The notes beneath the pieces are model-generated. The model was not told the origin of the DNA, ran no database searches, and saw only the letters and a list, made by a program, of their open reading frames with translations. From Propionimicrobium sp. PCR01-08-3 (GTDB taxonomy: Bacteria > Actinomycetota > Actinomycetes > Propionibacteriales > Propionibacteriaceae): DNA of 64,000 bases. Location: NCBI RefSeq assembly GCF_030286045.1, contig NZ_CP127390.1, forward strand, positions 434,001 to 498,000, given 5' to 3'. Within the stretch, counting starts at the first letter, position 1. Each line of letters opens with the position of its first letter. This document shows, in pieces, positions 5,162 through 18,483 of this stretch. The translations under genes were made by a program, and so were the position numbers.

Positions 5162-7261
5162 GTGGCCCTCGACCTGCAAACCGACCTACACAAGGTACGC
5201 AATATCGGCATCATGGCTCACATCGATGCCGGCAAGACGACCACTACTGAGCGGATCCTGTTCTACACCGGCATCACCCACAAGATCGGTGAGGTGCACG
5301 ACGGCGCTGCCACCATGGACTGGATGGAGCAGGAACAGGAACGCGGCATCACCATCACTTCGGCAGCCACTACCTGCTTCTGGAAGGGCTACCAGATCAA
5401 CATCATCGACACCCCAGGCCACGTCGACTTCACCGTCGAGGTGGAGCGCTCGCTGCGCGTCCTGGACGGTGCGGTCGCCGTCTTCGACGGCGTCGCCGGT
5501 GTCGAACCGCAGTCCATGACCGTGTGGCGCCAGGCGTCCAAGTATGGCGTCCCGCGCATCTGCTACATCAACAAGCTGGACCGTACCGGTGCCTCCTTCG
5601 ACTACTGTGTGCAAACCATCAAGGATCGGCTGCATGTCGATCCGGTTCGCCTGCAGTTGCCGATCGGTGCCGAGCACGATTTCCTCGGTGTCATCGACCT
5701 GGTCGAGATGAATGCCAAGACCTGGCGTGGCGAGACCCAGATGGGCGAGGACTACGTCGTCGAGGAGATCCCGGCCGAACTCAAGGACGCCGCTGATGCG
5801 GCGCGGGCCGAGATGATCGAGGCCATCGCCGAACACGACGATGAGCTGATGGAGACCTACCTGGAGGGCGAAGAGCCCACCGTGGAGCAGATCAAGCGCG
5901 CCGTCCGCACCGGTGTGCTGAACAATGCCTTCACCGCGGTGGTCTGCGGCACCTCGTTCAAGAACAAGGGTGTGCAGCCGCTGTTGGACGCGGTCATCGA
6001 CTACCTGCCGGCTCCGGTTGACGTCCCGGCCATCCAGGGCTTCAAGCCCGGTGATGAGTCTGTGGTGATCGAGAGGCATGCCGACAAGACCGAGCCGCTC
6101 GCGGCACTGGCCTTCAAGATCGCCGCCGACCCGCACCTGGGCAGGCTGACCTTCGTGCGCGTCTACTCCGGCGTCCTGCAGTCAGGCAGCCAGGTGCTGA
6201 ACGCGGAAACCGGCAAGAAGGAGCGCATCGGCAAGATCTACCAGATGCACGCCAACAAGCGCCAGGAGGTCGACTTCATGCCCGCCGGCAATATCTGCGC
6301 GGTCATGGGGCTGAAGAACACCGGCACCGGTGACACCCTGTGCGATCCGTCGAACCCGGTCATGCTGGAGTCGATGGACTTTCCGAACCCGGTCATCGAA
6401 CAGGCCATCGAGCCGAAGTCGAAGGCCGACCAGGAGAAGCTGTCGATCGCCATTCAGCGCCTGGTGGAAGAGGACCCCACCTTCCAGGTGCATACCGACG
6501 AGGACACCGGCCAGACCATCATCGCAGGCATGGGCGAGTTGCACCTTGAAGTCTTCATCGACCGCATGAAGCGCGAGTTCCACGTCGAGGCGAATATCGG
6601 TCGGCCGCAGGTCGCCTACCGCGAGACCTTGCGCCGCCCGGTGCAGCACGTCGAATACACGCACAAGAAGCAGTCGGGTGGTTCGGGCCAATACGCAAAG
6701 GTCATCATCGACCTGGAGCCGACCGAAGCGGGCTCGGGCTACGAGTTCGTCAACGCCGTCACCGGTGGACGTATCCCCAAGGAATACATCCCCGCCGTGG
6801 ACGCAGGCGTCAAGGAAGCCATGCAGTTCGGTGTGCTGGCCGGCTACCCGGTCGAGGACATCAAGGTGACCTTGACCGATGGCGCCTACCACGACGTCGA
6901 CTCCTCCGAACTGGCGTTCAAGATCGCCGGCGCGATGGTCTTCAAGGAGGCCGCCCGCAAGGCGAGCCCCGCCCTGCTGGAGCCGCTGATGGCCGTCGAG
7001 GTGACCACTCCGGACAACTACCTCGGCACCGTCATCGGCGACCTGAACGGACGCCGTGGCCAAGTGCAGTCGATGAACGAGGAACACGGCAACCAGGTCG
7101 TGAAGGCTCTGGTGCCGCTGTCGGAGATGTTCGGTTACGTCGGTGACCTGCGTTCGAAGACCTCGGGCCAGGCGACCTACACCATGGAGTTCCACTCCTA
7201 CGGTGAGGTGCCCAAGAGCCTTTCCGACGAGATCGTCGCCAAGGCACGCGGCGAGATCTGA
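5162..7261 (+). CDS. fusA: Translation elongation factor G
   Basis: 699-aa GTPase that drives ribosomal translocation and, with RRF, ribosome recycling. All G motifs are intact: P-loop [15 protein letters not shown], switch [20 protein letters not shown] with the catalytic histidine, and NKLD. Domains II to V follow at normal length. GTG at 5162 is the start ([24 protein letters not shown]), preceded by AGGGG. This is the housekeeping EF-G; a second, divergent EF-G-like protein is encoded at 58664-60760. Confidence 0.98.
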
Positions 7262-11689: not shown

Positions 11690-13153
11690 GTGACCACACC
11701 AGCTCGTACCCGTGTCGCCCCCAGTCCCACCGGTGATCCGCATGTCGGCACCGCCTATATGGCCTTGTTCGACAAGGCTTGGGCGCGCAAGACCGGGGGC
11801 CGGTTCGTCCTTCGTATCGAAGACACCGATCGCAACCGGTTGGTCGAAGGCTCCGAACAGCAGATCTACGATTCGCTCGCCTGGCTGGGGCTCGATGCGG
11901 ACGAAAGCCCCGAGCTCGGCGGGCCCTACGCGCCGTACAAGCAATCGGAGCGGCTGGACACCTATCGTCCGTTCGTCGACAAACTGATCGAGGACGGTCA
12001 CGCCTACTACTGCTGGTGTTCGGGCGAGCGGTTGGCGCAGATGCGCAAGGAGCAGCAGGAATCCAAGCAGTCGAATACCGGCTACGACCGATTGTGCCTG
12101 GGCATGACCCGCGAGGAGCGGGCCAAGCTGCCCGGGTTCAGCGAGACGCCGGTGGTGCGGATGCTTGTTCCCGACGATGTGACGCTGAGTTTCCATGATC
12201 TGATTCGCGGTGAGGTGAAAGCCCCTCGTCCCGACGATCAGGTGATCTTGAAGGCAGACGGTTTCCCGACCTACCACCTGGCCGTCGTGGTGGACGATCA
12301 CCTGATGGGCATCACCACGGTGGTGCGTGGCGAGGAGTGGATCTCATCGACGCCGAAACATCTGCTGCTGTACCGGTGGCTTGGCTGGGACGCACCGGAT
12401 TTCGCGCACATGCCGCTGCTGCGCAATACCGACAAGTCGAAGATCTCGAAGCGCAAGAATCCGGCTGCGCGCCTGATGTGGTTCCGCGAACAGGGCTATC
12501 TGCCCGAGGCACTACGCAATTTTCTGCAGCTGTTGGCCTATCCGCCGGCCGAGGGCGAGCAGGAAGTTTCTTCGTTCGACGAGTTCGTCGAGGGGTTCGA
12601 CTGGGGCAAGATCAGCACCGTCGGCCCGATCTTCGACGTCAAGAAGCTGGATTGGCTGAACGGCGTGTACATTCGCTCGCTGCCCACCCACGAGCTGGCC
12701 GATCGCATCGTTTCGTATGCGTTGGAGTCGGGGCAGTGGTCCTCGGTGCCCGAGGGCGGACGCGAGACCGTACTGGCGGCGACGCCGCTGATCTCGGAGC
12801 GGCTGGTGACACTGGCCGAAGCGCTGCCGAAGCTGCAGTTCCTTTTCGATTCGGACTATGACCTGTCGATCAATCCGGCCTCGGTTGCGAAGCTGAAGGA
12901 CAACGCCGGCGAGGTGTTGGCTGTGGCCGAGACAACGTTGAAGGATCTGGGGGAGTGGACGACGGGTGCCATTCATCAGGCGCTCAATGTCGCGTTGGTG
13001 GAAGGTATGGAGTTGAAGCCGAAGTTCGCCTTCGCGCCGATCCGGGTGGCGATCACCGGCGAACAGGTCTCACCCCCGCTCTTCGAATCGATGGAGATCC
13101 TGGGCAAGGATTCGAGCCTGGCCCGGATAGCGCGTCTGGCCCAGGAGCTATAG
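11690..13153 (+). CDS. gltX: Glutamyl-tRNA synthetase
   Basis: 487-aa class I synthetase that charges tRNA with glutamate. The HIGH-type signature APSPTGDPHVGT is at residues 10-21 and the KMSKS-type loop KISKRK at 251-256. FVLRIEDTDRNR and the alpha-helical anticodon domain (EWTTGAIHQALN, ending ARLAQEL) are complete. GTG start 11690 follows a TAGGCT -10 box directly. The last two codons overlap the convergent HNH gene by 6 bp. A second, decayed copy of the gltX 3' end lies at 15352-15537. Confidence 0.97.
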   Translation: MTTPARTRVAPSPTGDPHVGTAYMALFDKAWARKTGGRFVLRIEDTDRNRLVEGSEQQIYDSLAWLGLDADESPELGGPYAPYKQSERLDTYRPFVDKLIEDGHAYYCWCSGERLAQMRKEQQESKQSNTGYDRLCLGMTREERAKLPGFSETPVVRMLVPDDVTLSFHDLIRGEVKAPRPDDQVILKADGFPTYHLAVVVDDHLMGITTVVRGEEWISSTPKHLLLYRWLGWDAPDFAHMPLLRNTDKSKISKRKNPAARLMWFREQGYLPEALRNFLQLLAYPPAEGEQEVSSFDEFVEGFDWGKISTVGPIFDVKKLDWLNGVYIRSLPTHELADRIVSYALESGQWSSVPEGGRETVLAATPLISERLVTLAEALPKLQFLFDSDYDLSINPASVAKLKDNAGEVLAVAETTLKDLGEWTTGAIHQALNVALVEGMELKPKFAFAPIRVAITGEQVSPPLFESMEILGKDSSLARIARLAQEL

Positions 13154-15271
13154 GCCGCGTCGCGCGGGCACGTGAATGCGGGTCGTGCCTCCCGGGCTGA
13201 CCTGGTAGCAGTACCCGAGTTTTGAAGTCCAAATAAAGGTGCCGGGGGACGGTTGCTGGAGTTGCCAGCCGCCGTTGGTTTTCGCTCGGTGTGCCTTTCG
13301 GGAGAGCGGGCCGAGGTTGGCGGGGTTGGTCTGGCCGGTCGGCTGGTTTTCGCCTCGGTGAAACGGCATCGTGTGGTCCTGGTCGCAATAGCGGGACGCA
13401 GTGGTGCCGTAGGGGAATACGTCGACCGGATTGCGTTGCTCGATGACGAACCGCATCTTCTCGGGAACCTGGTATGCGTTGGTCGGTTTGATGTCTGTGG
13501 GGTTGATAACCGGTCGGACGACGACTGCCGAGTCTTTCAGAAATTCGGGTAGCTGGCTGACAAGAATCGGCCCCCAATCTTCAATCCGGGCTATGCCGGT
13601 CGGCGGCAGCTGAGGTTGGTAACAGGTGATCCGCCGCTGGTTTTCTGTCGGGTTACGGGCTGATTCACAACCGGCTGGTTCTGCATTTCCGGCGCCTGCC
13701 GCAGGGTCGTGGGCGGCTCCGTGCGGTTCGTCATCTCCGCTTTGACGATTCACCGTCGAGGCACTGTCTCCGGAGTTATGGTCCCCCTTGTCATCGATCG
13801 ATGACGGACCGGCTGCTGGGGTAGCGAATGCGAGATTATCGGCGTTGATATGCACGATCAGGGTGTGGGTCGGCATAGTGGTGCGGCGGGATGTTTGTGC
13901 GCAGCTCCCTTGCGTCTCCCGGTCGTAGCTCATCTCGCGCGCTTTCCGATCTTGTTGGTCGGGTGTCTGCTGTGGCCATGATGCTGCTGGGACCGGGAGT
14001 CTGCTTGTGTCGTCGGTCTTGCCGATGCTTGTGCTGTCATGATTGTCGAGCTGATGTGACTCGGCCCGTCGGCAGGCGTCCGACACAGAGCTGGCTGTCG
14101 CTTGACCTGCCTGGCCGTCGGCCCGCGTGTTGACTTCTTGGTGGGTGCGGCAGACGATACCGAGGGCTTGGGCGCGTCGCCGGTCGTGGTCATCGAATGA
14201 ATCACAGTCGGGGTCGGCGGGGATCAGTGCGGCGACTTGCTTCAAGATCGAATCGAACAAGATGCCGTCGCGAGCGTCAACGACGCCGTAGATCGTGACG
14301 TGCCCGTCCTCAATGGGAGAGACCCGGATAAACCGCGCCTTGCGGGCGGCTTCGTGCCGTTGCTGGGCGAGTTGGGGGTCGGCGGCGATGATCCATTCGT
14401 CCATGCGTTTCATGGCCAGGGTGAACGGCAGTAGCCGTAGCGCGTGGGCGAGCTGTTCGTCCACACGATGGGCGGCTTCGAGGGGGAGGTGATGGCATCG
14501 GGCACAGGCCTTCTTGGCTTGCCATACGCGGATGTTTCCGGCCATAACTTTTTGCAGAGTGAGGGGGAATCGGTAGCCCAGATCCAGGGCTTCTCCGATC
14601 CGGGAGATCGCCGATCGTGCGGTGATACCGAGCAGAGGTCCGATTTCAAGGGCGAGATATTCGCCCAGGTGTGGAGTTCCGTCGTGTCCGTAGGCGGTGA
14701 GCTTTTCTCCGTGGGTGTCACGTTCGATGGCGGCGTCGACTGCCTCGGAGTTGACGTCCCAGACTTCGGCGGCGTGCAGGATGGCGATGAGTTCGGCTAC
14801 TTCTGCGGCGATCACTTGATGGTGAGCATGGTCGAGCGCGGTGAACGCTGTGGCGCGTTCGGCCGGTGTGGCCACGAACTCGGGATCGGCGACCATGATC
14901 CGCTTGTCGTCATCCGGCAGCACAGTCCTGGACGCCGCGGGAGCTCTCAGTCCTGGGTATGGAGGAAGGGCAGCCGCAGGAACCGATCGCGTAGAGACCC
15001 GGCAGTCTCCAGTCGCTGCGTTGCTGGCAAACGAAGGCACCGGATTCTTGCCGAGCAGTGCCGACGCTAGACCTGCATCTGTGGAGTCGGTTGGTGACGA
15101 AAGGATCGGCCGAGCGAAGGCGTCATCTGAAGATTGAGAACGACTGGATCGACCGGTCGTTGAGGCCCTGCACGTGAGACTGCTTGAACGAGCGCCCGCT
15201 CCCAGCAAGGACGGTTTTCCGACGGCGATTGCGCTGCCGGGTCCCCAATTGGTGGCCGTGGGAGTCTTCAT
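13148..15271 (-). CDS. 13E12-repeat-family DUF222/HNH endonuclease domain protein
   Basis: 707-aa protein of the 13E12/DUF222 family, common and multicopy in actinomycetes. The DUF222 helical region spans about residues 125-360 (FTALDHAHHQVIAAEVAELIA, RISRIGEALDLG-like blocks). A Ser/Asp-rich, low-complexity linker follows. The HNH nuclease at about 620-675 has YCDQDHTMPFHRG and NPANLGPLSRKAHRAKTNGG. The first 120 residues are low complexity, so a start at Met125 (MVADPEFVATPAER) is possible. A LexA-type box sits 66 bp upstream of the ATG, suggesting damage induction. It converges with gltX and is bounded on the other side by a gltX remnant, the layout expected of an inserted unit. Confidence 0.85.
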   Translation of the reverse strand: MKTPTATNWGPGSAIAVGKPSLLGAGARSSSLTCRASTTGRSSRSQSSDDAFARPILSSPTDSTDAGLASALLGKNPVPSFASNAATGDCRVSTRSVPAAALPPYPGLRAPAASRTVLPDDDKRIMVADPEFVATPAERATAFTALDHAHHQVIAAEVAELIAILHAAEVWDVNSEAVDAAIERDTHGEKLTAYGHDGTPHLGEYLALEIGPLLGITARSAISRIGEALDLGYRFPLTLQKVMAGNIRVWQAKKACARCHHLPLEAAHRVDEQLAHALRLLPFTLAMKRMDEWIIAADPQLAQQRHEAARKARFIRVSPIEDGHVTIYGVVDARDGILFDSILKQVAALIPADPDCDSFDDHDRRRAQALGIVCRTHQEVNTRADGQAGQATASSVSDACRRAESHQLDNHDSTSIGKTDDTSRLPVPAASWPQQTPDQQDRKAREMSYDRETQGSCAQTSRRTTMPTHTLIVHINADNLAFATPAAGPSSIDDKGDHNSGDSASTVNRQSGDDEPHGAAHDPAAGAGNAEPAGCESARNPTENQRRITCYQPQLPPTGIARIEDWGPILVSQLPEFLKDSAVVVRPVINPTDIKPTNAYQVPEKMRFVIEQRNPVDVFPYGTTASRYCDQDHTMPFHRGENQPTGQTNPANLGPLSRKAHRAKTNGGWQLQQPSPGTFIWTSKLGYCYQVSPGGTTRIHVPARRGL

Positions 15272-15336
15272 GAAACAAACAATACTCGAACAGAAGATCG
15301 GATACTAGACCCTAACCGCACATACTGGATATATTA

Positions 15337-15352
15337 TCGAACAATAGTTCGA
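15337..15352 (-). promoter_or_regulatory. LexA (SOS) box upstream of the 13E12/HNH gene
   Basis: TCGAACAATAGTTCGA is a perfect match to the actinobacterial LexA operator TCGAAC-N4-GTTCGA; the palindrome extends to 15336-15353. It lies 66 bp upstream of the HNH ATG on the minus strand. An AT-rich TAATATAT stretch next to it and a TATTGT seven bases before the ATG are possible -10 boxes. 13E12-family genes of M. tuberculosis are known LexA targets. Confidence 0.8.
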
Positions 15353-15537
15353 TGTTGAAAGCGTTCGGAGCGGCGACGTGGCCGCGAGCCGCATCGTTCA
15401 TCGCTGATGCGATGACGTCACCGAGTTCGGGCAGCGATCATCGGCAAGTAGACCTCGCTTCCCCTTGTTCGAGTCGATGGAGATCTTCGGTAAGCAACCA
15501 GGCCCAGGTTCTGACCTGCCTCGCGGGGGAGCTATAG
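15352..15537 (+). pseudogene. Decayed copy of the gltX 3' end
   Basis: From GTTGAAAG at 15353 to CTATAG at 15537 this stretch aligns with the last part of gltX. It shares the 12-mer TCGATGGAGATC (13088-13099 versus 15474-15485) and the final GGAGCTATAGG (13144-13154 versus 15528-15538) at corresponding spacing. Small indels frameshift it, and a segment of about 60-70 bp is missing near 15415. Its last codons read LAGEL-stop versus LAQEL-stop in gltX. Identity over the last 105 bp is roughly two thirds by eye. It is read as a footprint of insertion or allelic replacement at the gltX 3' end. The rest of 15272-15663 holds the SOS box and a candidate promoter (TTGACC 15593, GAAACT 15616) for the lipoprotein. 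Confidence 0.7.
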
Positions 15538-15663
15538 GTCAGAGTCCCGATTCCTGACGTCGCTGAGTTGTCCACAGAACAACTGACCTGGCTTGACCCT
15601 GCTCAGGAGATGGCTGAAACTGTGGGTACTTGTCAGTGCTGACTTGAGCCCCAGGAGTTTCAG

Positions 15664-16239
15664 ATGCGTGGACGCATGGGTGTAGTGGCGGTTGGTTTAT
15701 CGGTTGTGCTCGTTTTCGGGGCGTGCACTCCGGGCGGTGCGGAGCCGAGTGGAGGTGGCGCTTCGTCGGCTACTCCGATGGCTTCGGTGTCTGCGGCGCC
15801 GTCGTCGGATGCTGAGATGGACGCACTGTATGCGGAAGCCGAGCAGGTCTTTCGCCGGTCAATGGAATTACGCAACCAATTCGAAGGGTCCGGAGATTAC
15901 AGCGAGTTTCCTGCCGAGCTCAATGAACTATTGGCGGATCCGTACCTTGATTCGGTCCATCAGCTGTTCGACTTTGGGCGCGAGAACGGTCTCCACGGTC
16001 CTGCTGGAGTTGGCCCGGCTTTGACCGTCGCCCGCTACCCGGGCGTTAGCAAAGGAGGCTCGGAAGTCGCGTTACGCGCTTGTCTTGACTCAAGAGACGC
16101 GCCTGCGCTTGATGCGGATGGGGAAGTGTTTTCTGAAGGTGGCCTCTTTCACATGAAATTGTTCTTCAAGCATTTTGAGGGCTCGCTCAAGCTCTTCGAT
16201 GGCACCACAGGGAGTGTGGACGAATGCCCATTTGGCTGA
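15664..16239 (+). CDS. Secreted lipoprotein of unknown function
   Basis: 191-aa protein with a type II signal peptide: MRGRMGVVAVGLSVVLVFGAC with lipobox VFGAC, then a Gly/Ser/Ala-rich linker. The globular part, from about residue 50, has no motif I recognise; two cysteines (ACLDS, DECPFG) may form a disulfide. AGGAG lies eight bases before the ATG. The 3' end overlaps the next gene by 16 bp in another frame, so the two are probably cotranslated and may act together at the cell surface. Confidence 0.7.
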   Translation: MRGRMGVVAVGLSVVLVFGACTPGGAEPSGGGASSATPMASVSAAPSSDAEMDALYAEAEQVFRRSMELRNQFEGSGDYSEFPAELNELLADPYLDSVHQLFDFGRENGLHGPAGVGPALTVARYPGVSKGGSEVALRACLDSRDAPALDADGEVFSEGGLFHMKLFFKHFEGSLKLFDGTTGSVDECPFG

Positions 16240-17072
16240 GATCAGTATTCGCAGCTTGGCTGTGCATTGTGCTATCGCTGACTGCGCAGGTAACAGCGGC
16301 CAACGCTCATTGTTCTGATGTTCAGGGGCAATACGGCACTATCCAAACTTGCTCTGGCGACTCGTCACTCGAGATTACGGCTGGGGAGACGCAGCCTGGT
16401 TCCGCTGGGGTGGTGGCGGATTCGGGTTGGTCTGTGGTGGATGGTGTCGCTGGTGGTTCTGGTGGCGGTGAGGATGTGCCGGTGGTGGTGTGTGATTTGT
16501 TCTCCCATGTGGCGGCGGAGGGTGCTTCGGGGTTGAAGTGTCCGAATGGCGGGAGGTTGTTGCCGGGCGCGGCGCCGGCGGCGGATGTTGCTGATGCTCC
16601 GGTGGTGGATGTGGGTGCTGTTGCCCGGTCTGCTGTTGCGTCTCTTGGTGTTCCTGCGCCGCGGGTTCGGTTGTCTCCGGAGCCTCAGGATAATGAGTGG
16701 GGTGCTTTGGGTGTGGGGTTGCCGATTTGGGGTTGGGTGGATGATCCCGGCTCATTGACTCAGTCGGCCAGTGCGGAGGGGATTGATATTTCGTTGACGG
16801 CGTCGCGGGGCACCGTGAGGTTTGATTGGGGTGATGGCACGGTTTCGGAGTGCACGCAGATGTCGGAGCGTCCGGCGGGTGTGGATCCGTTGACGCCGTC
16901 TCCGACGTGTGGGCATACGTATCTCAAGCGTGGCGATTACACGATTACTGTGACGGCAGAGTGGTCGGTGGCGTGGTCGGCGTTGGGTCAGCAGGGTGAG
17001 GTGCCGTTGGTCTCGAATACCGTGACCTATGAGATGCCGATCCGCGAATTCGTCACCGTCGTCATCGGCTGA
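16224..17072 (+). CDS. Secreted protein with PKD-like domain
   Basis: 282-aa exported protein: signal peptide MPIWLRSVFAAWLCIVLSLTAQ... ending near ANA, a cysteine-containing N-terminal region, then a PKD-like fold at about residues 180-275. That fold carries TVRFDWGDGTVSECT and CGHTYLKRGDYTITVTAEWSV, with no membrane anchor. The coding strand is strikingly G/T-rich between about 16390 and 17040, with many GGT, GTG and GTT codons unlike the C-ending codons of neighbours. This suggests a different origin. Starts inside the upstream lipoprotein gene. Function unknown; PKD modules mostly mediate protein or carbohydrate contacts. Confidence 0.7.
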   Translation: MPIWLRSVFAAWLCIVLSLTAQVTAANAHCSDVQGQYGTIQTCSGDSSLEITAGETQPGSAGVVADSGWSVVDGVAGGSGGGEDVPVVVCDLFSHVAAEGASGLKCPNGGRLLPGAAPAADVADAPVVDVGAVARSAVASLGVPAPRVRLSPEPQDNEWGALGVGLPIWGWVDDPGSLTQSASAEGIDISLTASRGTVRFDWGDGTVSECTQMSERPAGVDPLTPSPTCGHTYLKRGDYTITVTAEWSVAWSALGQQGEVPLVSNTVTYEMPIREFVTVVIG

Positions 17073-17074
17073 CC

Positions 17075-17308
17075 ATGTGGCGAAATATCGAGAGAGCAGC
17101 CGAGCTAGCTGGCAAGCCAGTGGCAGCTTTGGCGCGGACGGACGCCGAGGAGCGGGCTGGCCGGATCCCGCGCGAGCATGGGGCAACGACCATTGTCCCC
17201 TCCGAGTTCTTCGATGAATTGATTGCCGCGTTCGAGGACCCTGCGTGTCCGAATCAGATACTCGCGGAGGCTGCCGCGCACCTGCACGAGACGATTGATC
17301 GTGACTGA
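17075..17308 (+). pseudogene. DUF1778/TacA-type antitoxin fragment, N-terminally truncated
   Basis: 77 codons reading MWRNIERAAELAGKP... then ATTIVPSEFFDELIAAFEDP, PNQILAEAAAHLHETI. This matches my memory of the middle and C-terminal, toxin-neutralising part of DUF1778 antitoxins (helix, IVLS-type loop, F..AL..P..PN.AL). The N-terminal ribbon-helix-helix DNA-binding strand is missing. No acetyltransferase toxin follows; the next 110 bp hold nothing recognisable. It begins two bases after the PKD gene stop. It is probably a relic, though a short functional protein cannot be excluded. Confidence 0.5.
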
Positions 17309-17422
17309 GCGCCACCGGTCGCAACGATTGGATCGGTACAGGTGCGATGTGATTGGTTAGCCTACGAAGCTTGCCCGGATCTGTCGTCGTCAACTGCCTT
17401 TACCGATACTGTGAATGGATAG

Positions 17423-17728
17423 TCACGGTACGCGGATGTCTGAGGGGTATGGGCCAATGGGTGGGACTGAGCTTTTGATCATCGCCCTGGAGGTGAAGAC
17501 GGCAGCTTCCCCCAGCAGCGTCTCGCGTGGTTTGAGGCCTTCGATCACCAAATAGGCGACATCCGATTCGGGGTCACCCAGATCAGCCGCGGAGAATTGG
17601 TAGGCATTCCGGTCGGTCGCCGCTTGGCCTGGAGCCACCCGGGCGCGATAGGTCTTCGAGCGGTCCTCGGCGGCGTCCAATGCGCGGAGCAGCCGTCCGG
17701 GAGAGATTGAAGACTCAATTGTTGGCAT
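17423..17728 (-). CDS. Hypothetical protein
   Basis: 101-aa protein MPTIESSISPGRLLRALDAAEDRS..., with QFSAADLGDPESDVAYLVIEGLKPRE in the centre and a Pro-rich end. No family recognised, no signal peptide or membrane segment. ATG 17728 is chosen because TATGGT lies seven bases upstream on the minus strand, as in the other leaderless genes here. An ATG at 17740 is in frame too. The ORF could be spurious; support is its codon pattern and the promoter-like box only. Confidence 0.4.
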   Translation of the reverse strand: MPTIESSISPGRLLRALDAAEDRSKTYRARVAPGQAATDRNAYQFSAADLGDPESDVAYLVIEGLKPRETLLGEAAVFTSRAMIKSSVPPIGPYPSDIRVP

Positions 17729-18171
17729 GGACGACACCATAAGCCATCAACCGGCGGCAACCTTCGGGCAGCAAACAGACCACCCGATTTGAATCCGGGG
17801 CCCACTTCGTGCGATTATTTACAGGTTGCTCCTTTGGGGCCCACGTGTGCGCGCCGCGGATAAGGCAGTAAAGCTGCCGAGGCCGGACGAGTGGACAGGT
17901 CTCGGAGCGAAGGCTTCTGATGGTTGGCGCAGCCGCCAGGGGAAGCCGCACCAGCTGGACGTGGGCATGGCCCACTGCGCCGGCGATCGCCTTCGGGTGG
18001 ACGCCGCGGGCTGGCAAGCATATGAACAGAGGGCTTGTGGTAGTGCGGTGAACCAGGTGCGACACGCCCGACCGCGGGGGTCGAGCAATACGGCATTGAC
18101 AAGCGATGTTGGACGGGATTTGGGCTGATTTCAGGTTCAGATCACAGCAGGGACGAGTAGAAGGAACAACC
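17729..18171. other. Gene-free region upstream of the S10 operon
   Basis: 443 bp without a convincing gene; overlapping ORFs on both strands lack family features. GGGGCCCAC occurs twice about 40 bp apart (near 17797 and 17837). TTGACA at 18096-18101 is the best -35 candidate for rpsJ, but the matching -10 is weak (TGGGCT at 18121-18126, 19-bp spacer). A ribosome-binding site AGAAGGA precedes the rpsJ GTG. Confidence 0.4.
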
Positions 18172-18483
18172 GTGGCGGGACAAAAGATCCGCATCAGGCT
18201 TCGGGCCTATGACCATGAGGTCATCGACTCGTCGGCGCGCAAGATCGTCGACACCGTCACCCGGACGGGTGCCAAGGTCGCCGGCCCAGTGCCGCTGCCG
18301 ACCGAGAAGAACGTGTGGTGCGTTATTCGCTCCCCACACAAGTACAAGGACAGCCGCGAGCATTTCGAGATGCGTACACACAAGCGGCTCATCGACATCC
18401 TCGACCCGACCCCGAAGACGGTTGATTCGCTGATGCGGCTCGACCTTCCGGCAGGCGTCGACATCGAGATCAAGCTCCCGTGA
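18172..18483 (+). CDS. rpsJ: 30S ribosomal protein S10
   Basis: 103-aa S10 of the small-subunit head, also a partner of NusB in antitermination in other bacteria. Canonical sequence from [19 protein letters not shown] to [15 protein letters not shown] at 18172 is the family start and has AGAAGGA upstream; the in-frame extension to 18106 is non-coding leader. First gene of the S10 operon; rplC begins 11 bp after the stop. Confidence 0.97.

Follow-up and report, generated by a model that had tools for sequence, protein, structure and literature searches.

The gltX 3' end and its second copy

We analysed a 64 kb window of the genome of Propionimicrobium sp. PCR01-08-3 (G000; 3.29 Mb, two contigs), in which the glutamate--tRNA ligase gene gltX meets a gene of the 13E12 (DUF222-HNH) family tail to tail, and in which a second, decayed gltX 3' end lies on the far side of that gene, an arrangement that is probably the scar of an old insertion. 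In what follows, G numbers denote genomes and L numbers denote loci. The features concerned are these:

11690-13153, forward strand: gltX, glutamate--tRNA ligase, 487 amino acids, intact (Pfam tRNA-synt_1c, expectation value (E) 3.7e-93; Anticodon_2, E 1.4e-25; NCBIfam TIGR00464, above cut-off)
13037-13154, forward strand: repeated gltX terminus, working copy, aligning with 15421-15538
13148-15271, reverse strand: DUF222-HNH (13E12-type) gene, 707 amino acids (Pfam DUF222, E 5.9e-10; paralogues in the genome)
13154-13165, no strand: spacer of 12 bases from the gltX stop codon to the last HNH codon common with paralogues (alignment of HNH 3' ends, by eye)
15337-15352, no strand: perfect SOS-box-like palindrome, TCGAAC-N4-GTTCGA, approximately 65 bases before the HNH start (motif scan of the 64 kb)
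15421-15538, forward strand: second gltX 3' end, decayed, stop codon at 15535-15537 (alignment, DNA profile and sister comparison)

The window gltX is the sole full-length gltX match across the genome. Its last codon (13148-13150), read on the opposite strand, is the stop codon of the HNH gene, so that the two genes overlap at their ends, as an earlier note on this DNA (the original prediction) had stated.

By strict local alignment, 13037-13154 and 15421-15538 scored 45 (maximum of 2000 dinucleotide shuffles, 34), and by a more lenient alignment they scored 40.5 (maximum of 2000 shuffles, 27); under neither scheme was the score reached by a single shuffle. The lenient score also exceeded the maximum of 32.5 over 958 comparisons with other window segments on both strands. 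Two stretches are exact between the copies, as had been predicted, namely a 12-mer (13088-13099 and 15474-15485) and the final 11 bases with the stop codon (13144-13154 and 15528-15538). A DNA profile of gltX 3' ends from 22 relatives and the window, when run against the 64 kb, placed 15425-15499 second after gltX itself at E 6.8e-10, the next place having E 0.0038. When the remnant segment was searched against the whole genome, gltX was the second-best place (E 0.004; next 0.097). Across this genome and 36 relatives, 16 of 37 genomes gave a match at E up to 0.01; outside our own genome, nine of the 15 matches were gltX 3' ends by position and the other six were short stretches of E 9e-4 or weaker, and the relatives yielded nothing else. 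The gltX ends of three relatives scored 48-59 against the remnant, the maximum of 200 shuffles each being 29. The gltX-end repeat is real and not a chance resemblance, since the shuffle, segment and profile controls were all exceeded.

The repeat is 118 bases long and imperfect; the remnant has indels, and its core is approximately 77% identical to the working copy. The second copy ends (15538) at the position that matches the point where the first copy meets the HNH unit (13154). Alignment and profile thus bear out the claim that a 13E12/HNH unit of approximately 2.2 kb has a gltX end on either side. The homology claimed for the region beyond the HNH start was likewise found, although its firm start (15421) lies approximately 150 bases from that start and not 80 as had been proposed; 15340-15420, previously counted as part of the copy, is not demonstrably gltX.

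The unit extends from approximately 13155 to somewhere in 15353-15420. Its protein matched the DUF222 domain (PF02720) with 39.4 bits against a cut-off of 24.4; a D-H...N...H pattern was seen by eye in the C-terminal region common to the paralogues, and no match was obtained with the HNH models of Pfam, NCBIfam and PHROGs. Paralogues L087 and L088 end, by eye, in ...GTTRIQVP and ...GTTRIQAP followed by a stop codon. The window gene reads ...GTTRIHVP at 13166 and beyond without that stop, and its frame crosses the 12-base spacer into the gltX end. The palindrome upstream contains the only CGAAC-N4-GTTCG in the 64 kb and is, by the SOS (LexA-type) box consensus, a putative LexA site. Of 60 DUF222-HNH loci of Propionibacteriaceae, 16 have an SOS-type box with at most one mismatch near the start of the gene, among them the window, L084, L108-L114 and L117; some of the loci are orthologous and hence not wholly independent. 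Of 1200 mononucleotide shuffles, 1 had such a box. Upstream of the HNH gene, partial similarity links the window with L084 and L085 for approximately 100 bases.

The 17 inverted pairs with a length of at least 12 bases include none that would connect the two ends of the unit. A transposon with target duplication was considered and rejected, given a repeat that is 118 bases long and imperfect and no terminal inverted repeats joining the unit ends. Between 13154 and 17740, the proteins tested (HNH, lipoprotein, PKD, 17075-17308 and 17423-17740), each against one or more of the Pfam, NCBIfam and PHROGs libraries, gave no integrase or transposase match. The HNH protein obtained one weak match among phage records and one match among plasmid records.

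The locus in relatives and the origin of the second copy

Among the eight genomes of the genus, five (G001, G003, G005, G006, G007) have gltX and rpsJ approximately 0.4-0.5 kb apart with no HNH match between them, so gltX loci lacking the HNH gene do occur among close relatives. The interval is 1.3 kb in G002, approximately 5.9 kb in G004 and 5.0 kb in our genome; G004 was taken to be the same as L046 on the basis of identical match figures, and rpsJ was placed there by leader alignment because the contig ends. The original prediction had further raised the possibility of other 13E12 genes abutting gltX. By tblastn with the window protein at E 1e-6, none was found in 67 gltX loci other than our own (29 with up to 1.5 kb of flank and 38 with up to 8 kb, several genomes being represented twice), a search that diverged HNH genes could escape.

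The remainder of the window interval is occupied as follows:

15664-16239, forward strand: lipoprotein-like gene (named by eye), paired with the PKD-domain gene
16224-17072, forward strand: PKD-domain gene (Pfam PKD, E 7.1e-06)
17075-17308, no strand given: small open reading frame (ORF) between the PKD gene and the FhuF-like fragment
17423-17740, reverse strand: probable FhuF-like gene fragment (33-base match to L046 and ORF resemblance)
17783-18190, forward strand: conserved rpsJ leader (82.7-85.1% identity to L046, L047, L003 and L004)

In relatives the rpsJ leader follows gltX closely. Since its conservation starts at 17783 in the window, 13154-17782 is not collinear with relatives. Within this stretch, 17622-17654 matches L046 14881-14913 over 33 bases, inside an L046 ORF (14190-14996) between gltX and the rpsJ leader that resembles FhuF (Pfam, 0.00029, below cut-off). 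The L046 insert appeared by eye to be an iron-uptake cluster, Pfam having been applied to the FhuF-like protein only. The match, together with the resemblance of the window ORF to the L046 FhuF-like gene, suggests that a cluster of this type may once have stood at the window locus too. Among Propionibacteriaceae, different genes stand between gltX and the S10 operon, including an amino acid permease, a BioW fusion, MeaB, an RNase T-like gene and others. This variable spot beside an essential operon was seen at window 13154-18180 and at L046, L049, L050, L052, L054, L057, L058, L061, L062 and L074.

Both copies of the gltX terminus were compared with those of the nearest sisters, L046 and L047, over a 71-base core block and a 16-base tail. 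In the core block the working copy is identical to L046 at 62 of 71 positions and to L047 at 65, and all six of its differences from L047 fall at third codon positions. Between remnant and working copy, 16 of the 71 bases differ. Ten of these are changes specific to the remnant, relative to the working copy and both sisters, and are spread 5/2/3 over codon positions 1/2/3, because of which the remnant seems to have evolved without coding constraint. Of the other six, two are changes of the working copy (both at third positions), two match only L047 and two are unclear. The tail differs between the copies at three positions. Seven scored tail positions, two of them in the TAG stop codon, are common to both copies and unlike both sisters; among 29 relatives the gltX stop codon is TGA in 28 and TAG in one. 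Because both copies have this lineage-specific tail and TAG stop, the duplication probably arose in this lineage, at a time when the sisters had already branched off.

The original prediction had also offered the alternative that 13E12 DNA was exchanged into the gltX end and brought a functional terminus with it. Over codons 440-480, the working gltX has 84% identity to L046 and 89% to L047, compared with 69-88% and 68-92%, respectively, over the rest of the gene. A foreign terminus that restored gltX is therefore not supported by these comparisons, since codons 440-480 diverge from the sisters as the rest of gltX does, and the tail is common to both copies. The last alignment block (columns 480-493) is 67 and 60% identical to L046 and L047, respectively, and taken alone the last gltX codons could not exclude a foreign replacement; this tail block was divergent in nine of nine relatives compared (37-67%).

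Explanations for the duplicated terminus

We consider it fairly probable that the locus carries the scar of an old insertion of a 13E12 unit at the gltX 3' end. After the split from the known sisters, a unit consisting of the HNH gene and its SOS-type promoter would have become joined tail to tail to the gltX 3' end, and in the course of the joining at least the last 118 bases of gltX would have ended up on both sides of it. The left copy would have been kept by selection as the gltX end, and the right copy, having no function, would have decayed. Most likely a break close to the gltX terminus would have been repaired, its ends overlapping, in such a way that the unit was captured and the gltX end copied or retained on both sides, with neither transposase nor integrase; the HNH protein itself possibly helped. 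The repeat, the relatives without the unit, the pattern of decay and the lineage-specific tail in both copies are direct observations. The coincidence of 13154 and 15538 supports an insertion scar, since a duplicated target is expected to end where the first copy meets the unit. The proposal that 13E12-type DNA inserted at the gltX 3' end thus agrees with the repeat and with the HNH-free relatives; that insertion and duplication were a single event, we infer.

Several observations weigh against this explanation. The core block of the remnant is slightly nearer to L047 (57 of 71) than to its own gltX (55 of 71), and when gaps were allowed more freely, the remnant scored higher with L048 and L047 than with the gltX of its own genome. 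On the core block an origin of the remnant from a near relative is thus conceivable. The 30 bases between core block and tail were left unscored, their alignment being uncertain. At four HNH copies of G005 (L109, L112, L113, L114), 13 comparisons revealed no clear displaced neighbour terminus before the HNH gene. Finally, homology of a lipoprotein-PKD block starts approximately 5-50 bases past the remnant, so near to it that another insertion could have made the duplication.

This last point bears on the main rival, a separate earlier duplication. Here the gltX end would have been duplicated first, in tandem or when the lipoprotein-PKD pair arrived, while the HNH gene either came between the copies later or is incidental; we regard this as possible but rather unlikely. 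The pair lies directly after the remnant and was not found at the 67 other gltX loci, because of which the history of the locus is one of more than one event. The gltX-rpsJ interval also varies elsewhere, as in L046 (approximately 5.9 kb) and L074 (1.3 kb). Against a separate duplication stand the two or more events that it needs and the coincidence of the gltX-HNH junction with the end of the repeat.

A second alternative is that a homing-type HNH unit brought a foreign gltX 3' end and displaced the native one, which we judge to be improbable. The geometry is that of gene hybrids made by mobile ORFs in fungal mitochondria, which are described for Allomyces atp6 and for Glomus atp6, atp9, cox2 and nad3 in PMC3630166; there too, an endonuclease-type ORF lies between a working and a displaced gene terminus. 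In those hybrids a divergent terminus was inserted and the displaced terminus is relative-like, whereas at gltX the working terminus looks native for the greater part and decay has affected the displaced one. The telling sign, a foreign working terminus with a native displaced one, was not encountered at gltX. The presence of a DUF222-HNH gene with an SOS-type box would suit such a homing unit, as would the last ten or so codons, which form the gltX block most divergent from both sisters. The ordinary divergence of codons 440-480 and the tail and stop codon common to both copies speak against it.

A possible parallel for such a replacement was found elsewhere in our genome, at L084. The HNH gene there has a transporter gene on one side and urease genes on the other, which adjoin each other in G005, G006 and G007. 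A 30-base repeat (25 of 30 identical) ends at the transporter stop codon and recurs immediately past that of the HNH gene; before the HNH promoter lies a PKD-gene 3' end. With as many as three mismatches allowed, the core of the repeat has no further occurrence in the genome. The case is weakened by the fact that 1.1% of 3306 non-self flank pairs from 58 loci score as high, and by a transporter tail that is not conserved. A homing unit is further opposed by the four G005 copies named above, at which there was no clear trace of a displaced terminus. We take L084 as a weak hint of a second such scar. It would be a marked step further, and one we think very unlikely to be right, to regard SOS-induced DUF222-HNH units as bacterial 3'-end homing elements that cut near a stop codon, enter antisense and leave a working and a displaced, decaying terminus, with gltX and, less clearly, L084 as their scars.

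Integrase islands typically target the 3' ends of genes and restore the gene end, and the locus could in principle be the relic of a larger island that an integrase placed at the gltX 3' end and that has since shrunk to the HNH gene, although we find this highly doubtful. As in such islands, a functional gene end stands on one side and a second copy on the other, the last 11 bases being identical. Unlike them, the window has no integrase among the proteins tested, its copies have diverged, and relatives show no clear gltX-end repeat: a self-repeat downstream of gltX exceeded the maximum of 20 shuffles in five of 29 relatives (direct in L052, L073 and L075; inverted in L069 and L070), by 2-4 units compared with 11 in the window. 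No phage record matched the gltX end at E 0.01, and a literature search for gltX as an integration site or attB gave nothing. Chance resemblance, finally, is practically dismissed by the shuffle, profile and relatives' scores given above.

13E12 genes elsewhere

We know of no explanation for the spread of 13E12/DUF222-HNH genes, which are common repeats in actinobacteria. In our own genome, 14 stretches at seven places matched DUF222-HNH, comprising, apart from the window, five long paralogues and one fragment; at E 1e-30, 79 of 198 family genomes (our own included) had a match. The window resembles the REP13E12/DUF222-HNH family of actinobacteria in its DUF222 protein, the several diverged copies per genome and the SOS-type box near the gene. 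The RecA-LexA/SOS section of PMC4181829 names 13E12 genes. According to the review PMC9317374, the prophage phiRv1 lies within a REP13E12 repeat of Mycobacterium tuberculosis, whereas in the window it is the HNH unit itself that abuts a host gene with a duplicated end. In the titles and abstract openings returned by literature searches on 13E12, DUF222-HNH and gltX integration, gltX was not described as a 13E12 target.

A terminal duplication as a general rule at 13E12 genes was rejected by comparisons within the genus, within the family and with HNH-free relatives. Among 21 genus HNH loci, some of them orthologous pairs, only the window and L084 scored more than two units above the best of 100 shuffles; among control genes, one of 42 did so (60 shuffles). 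Of 39 testable family HNH loci (one more was left out because its flank was too short), four exceeded all 100 shuffles, namely L180, L188, L169 (by one unit) and L198, the last having a 22-mer on both sides at 345 or more bases from the gene. When the flanks of 58 loci were compared with one another, two of 3306 non-self pairs reached the window score; the window ranked third after L180 and L188, followed by L198 and L084. The L180 and L188 repeats look like dispersed palindromic repeats; in the cross comparison, similar sequences are shared by L180 and L184 and by L188 and L186. The HNH genes of these two loci have similar repeats of approximately 40-54 bases on both sides, the L188 type being GTTGAGTAGCG...CGTATCGAAA. 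On these comparisons a duplicated terminus does not hold as a rule for 13E12 genes.

For the four G005 copies, both flanks were found in HNH-free relatives for L109 (in three, with other DNA between), L113 (in two) and L114 (in one); of the L112 flanks, the convergent neighbour alone had a counterpart. Eleven of the 13 displaced-terminus comparisons were ordinary. The score of L113 with its own neighbour was reached by 5 of 200 shuffles and that of L109 by 14 of 200, and neither marginal score was borne out by the neighbour ends of relatives. At L112 and L114, the gap between the preceding gene and the HNH gene is under 90 bases. At L085, a gene 3' end discerned by eye at approximately 5960-6130 and pointing away from the HNH start had no parent gene in 11 genomes, our own included.

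The probable scar at gltX is uncommon but modest, a minor novelty in a repetitive family that is already known. With HNH-free sister genomes at hand for comparison, it provides one concrete case of 13E12 insertion that can be studied. The SOS-type boxes point to a possible tie between DNA damage and the expression, perhaps even the movement, of DUF222-HNH genes. It is one decayed locus, and it establishes no mechanism.

Tail-to-tail targeting by HNH genes was also considered and rejected: convergence is preferred, but the neighbours are no closer than in controls. When only genes that had a neighbour at a distance of up to 1500 bases were counted, 41 of 53 HNH genes and 94 of 193 controls were convergent with the next gene (Fisher p 0.00018). 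With another home-made gene caller the figures were 38 of 56 and 156 of 328 (L190 without a call, L114 counted twice). The next gene lay within 30 bases in 14 of 53 HNH genes against 46 of 193 controls and, with the other caller, in 13 of 56 against 74 of 328. L089 (a fragment), L118 (at a contig end) and L119, L122 and L123 (duplicates of G005 copies) had been left out beforehand. At L109 and L112, homology with HNH-free relatives stops within approximately 10 bases of the stop codon of the overlapped convergent neighbour, in three of three relatives for L109 and one of three for L112.

A lipoprotein-PKD pair similar to that of the window lies elsewhere in the genome (L120; G000:C1:2310818-2312303), with 91% and 93% identity in two blocks and the middle unaligned. 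The two pairs (15588-17072 in the window) remain similar as far as the PKD stop codon and no further. The exact coincidence of such breakpoints with stop codons was considered and set aside, being explained by coding conservation; the sequences after the stop differ between the loci compared, except for L097 and one L121 copy, which are alike. The L120 pair lies approximately 11 kb from another HNH copy, which has a fragment of a PKD 3' end before its start.

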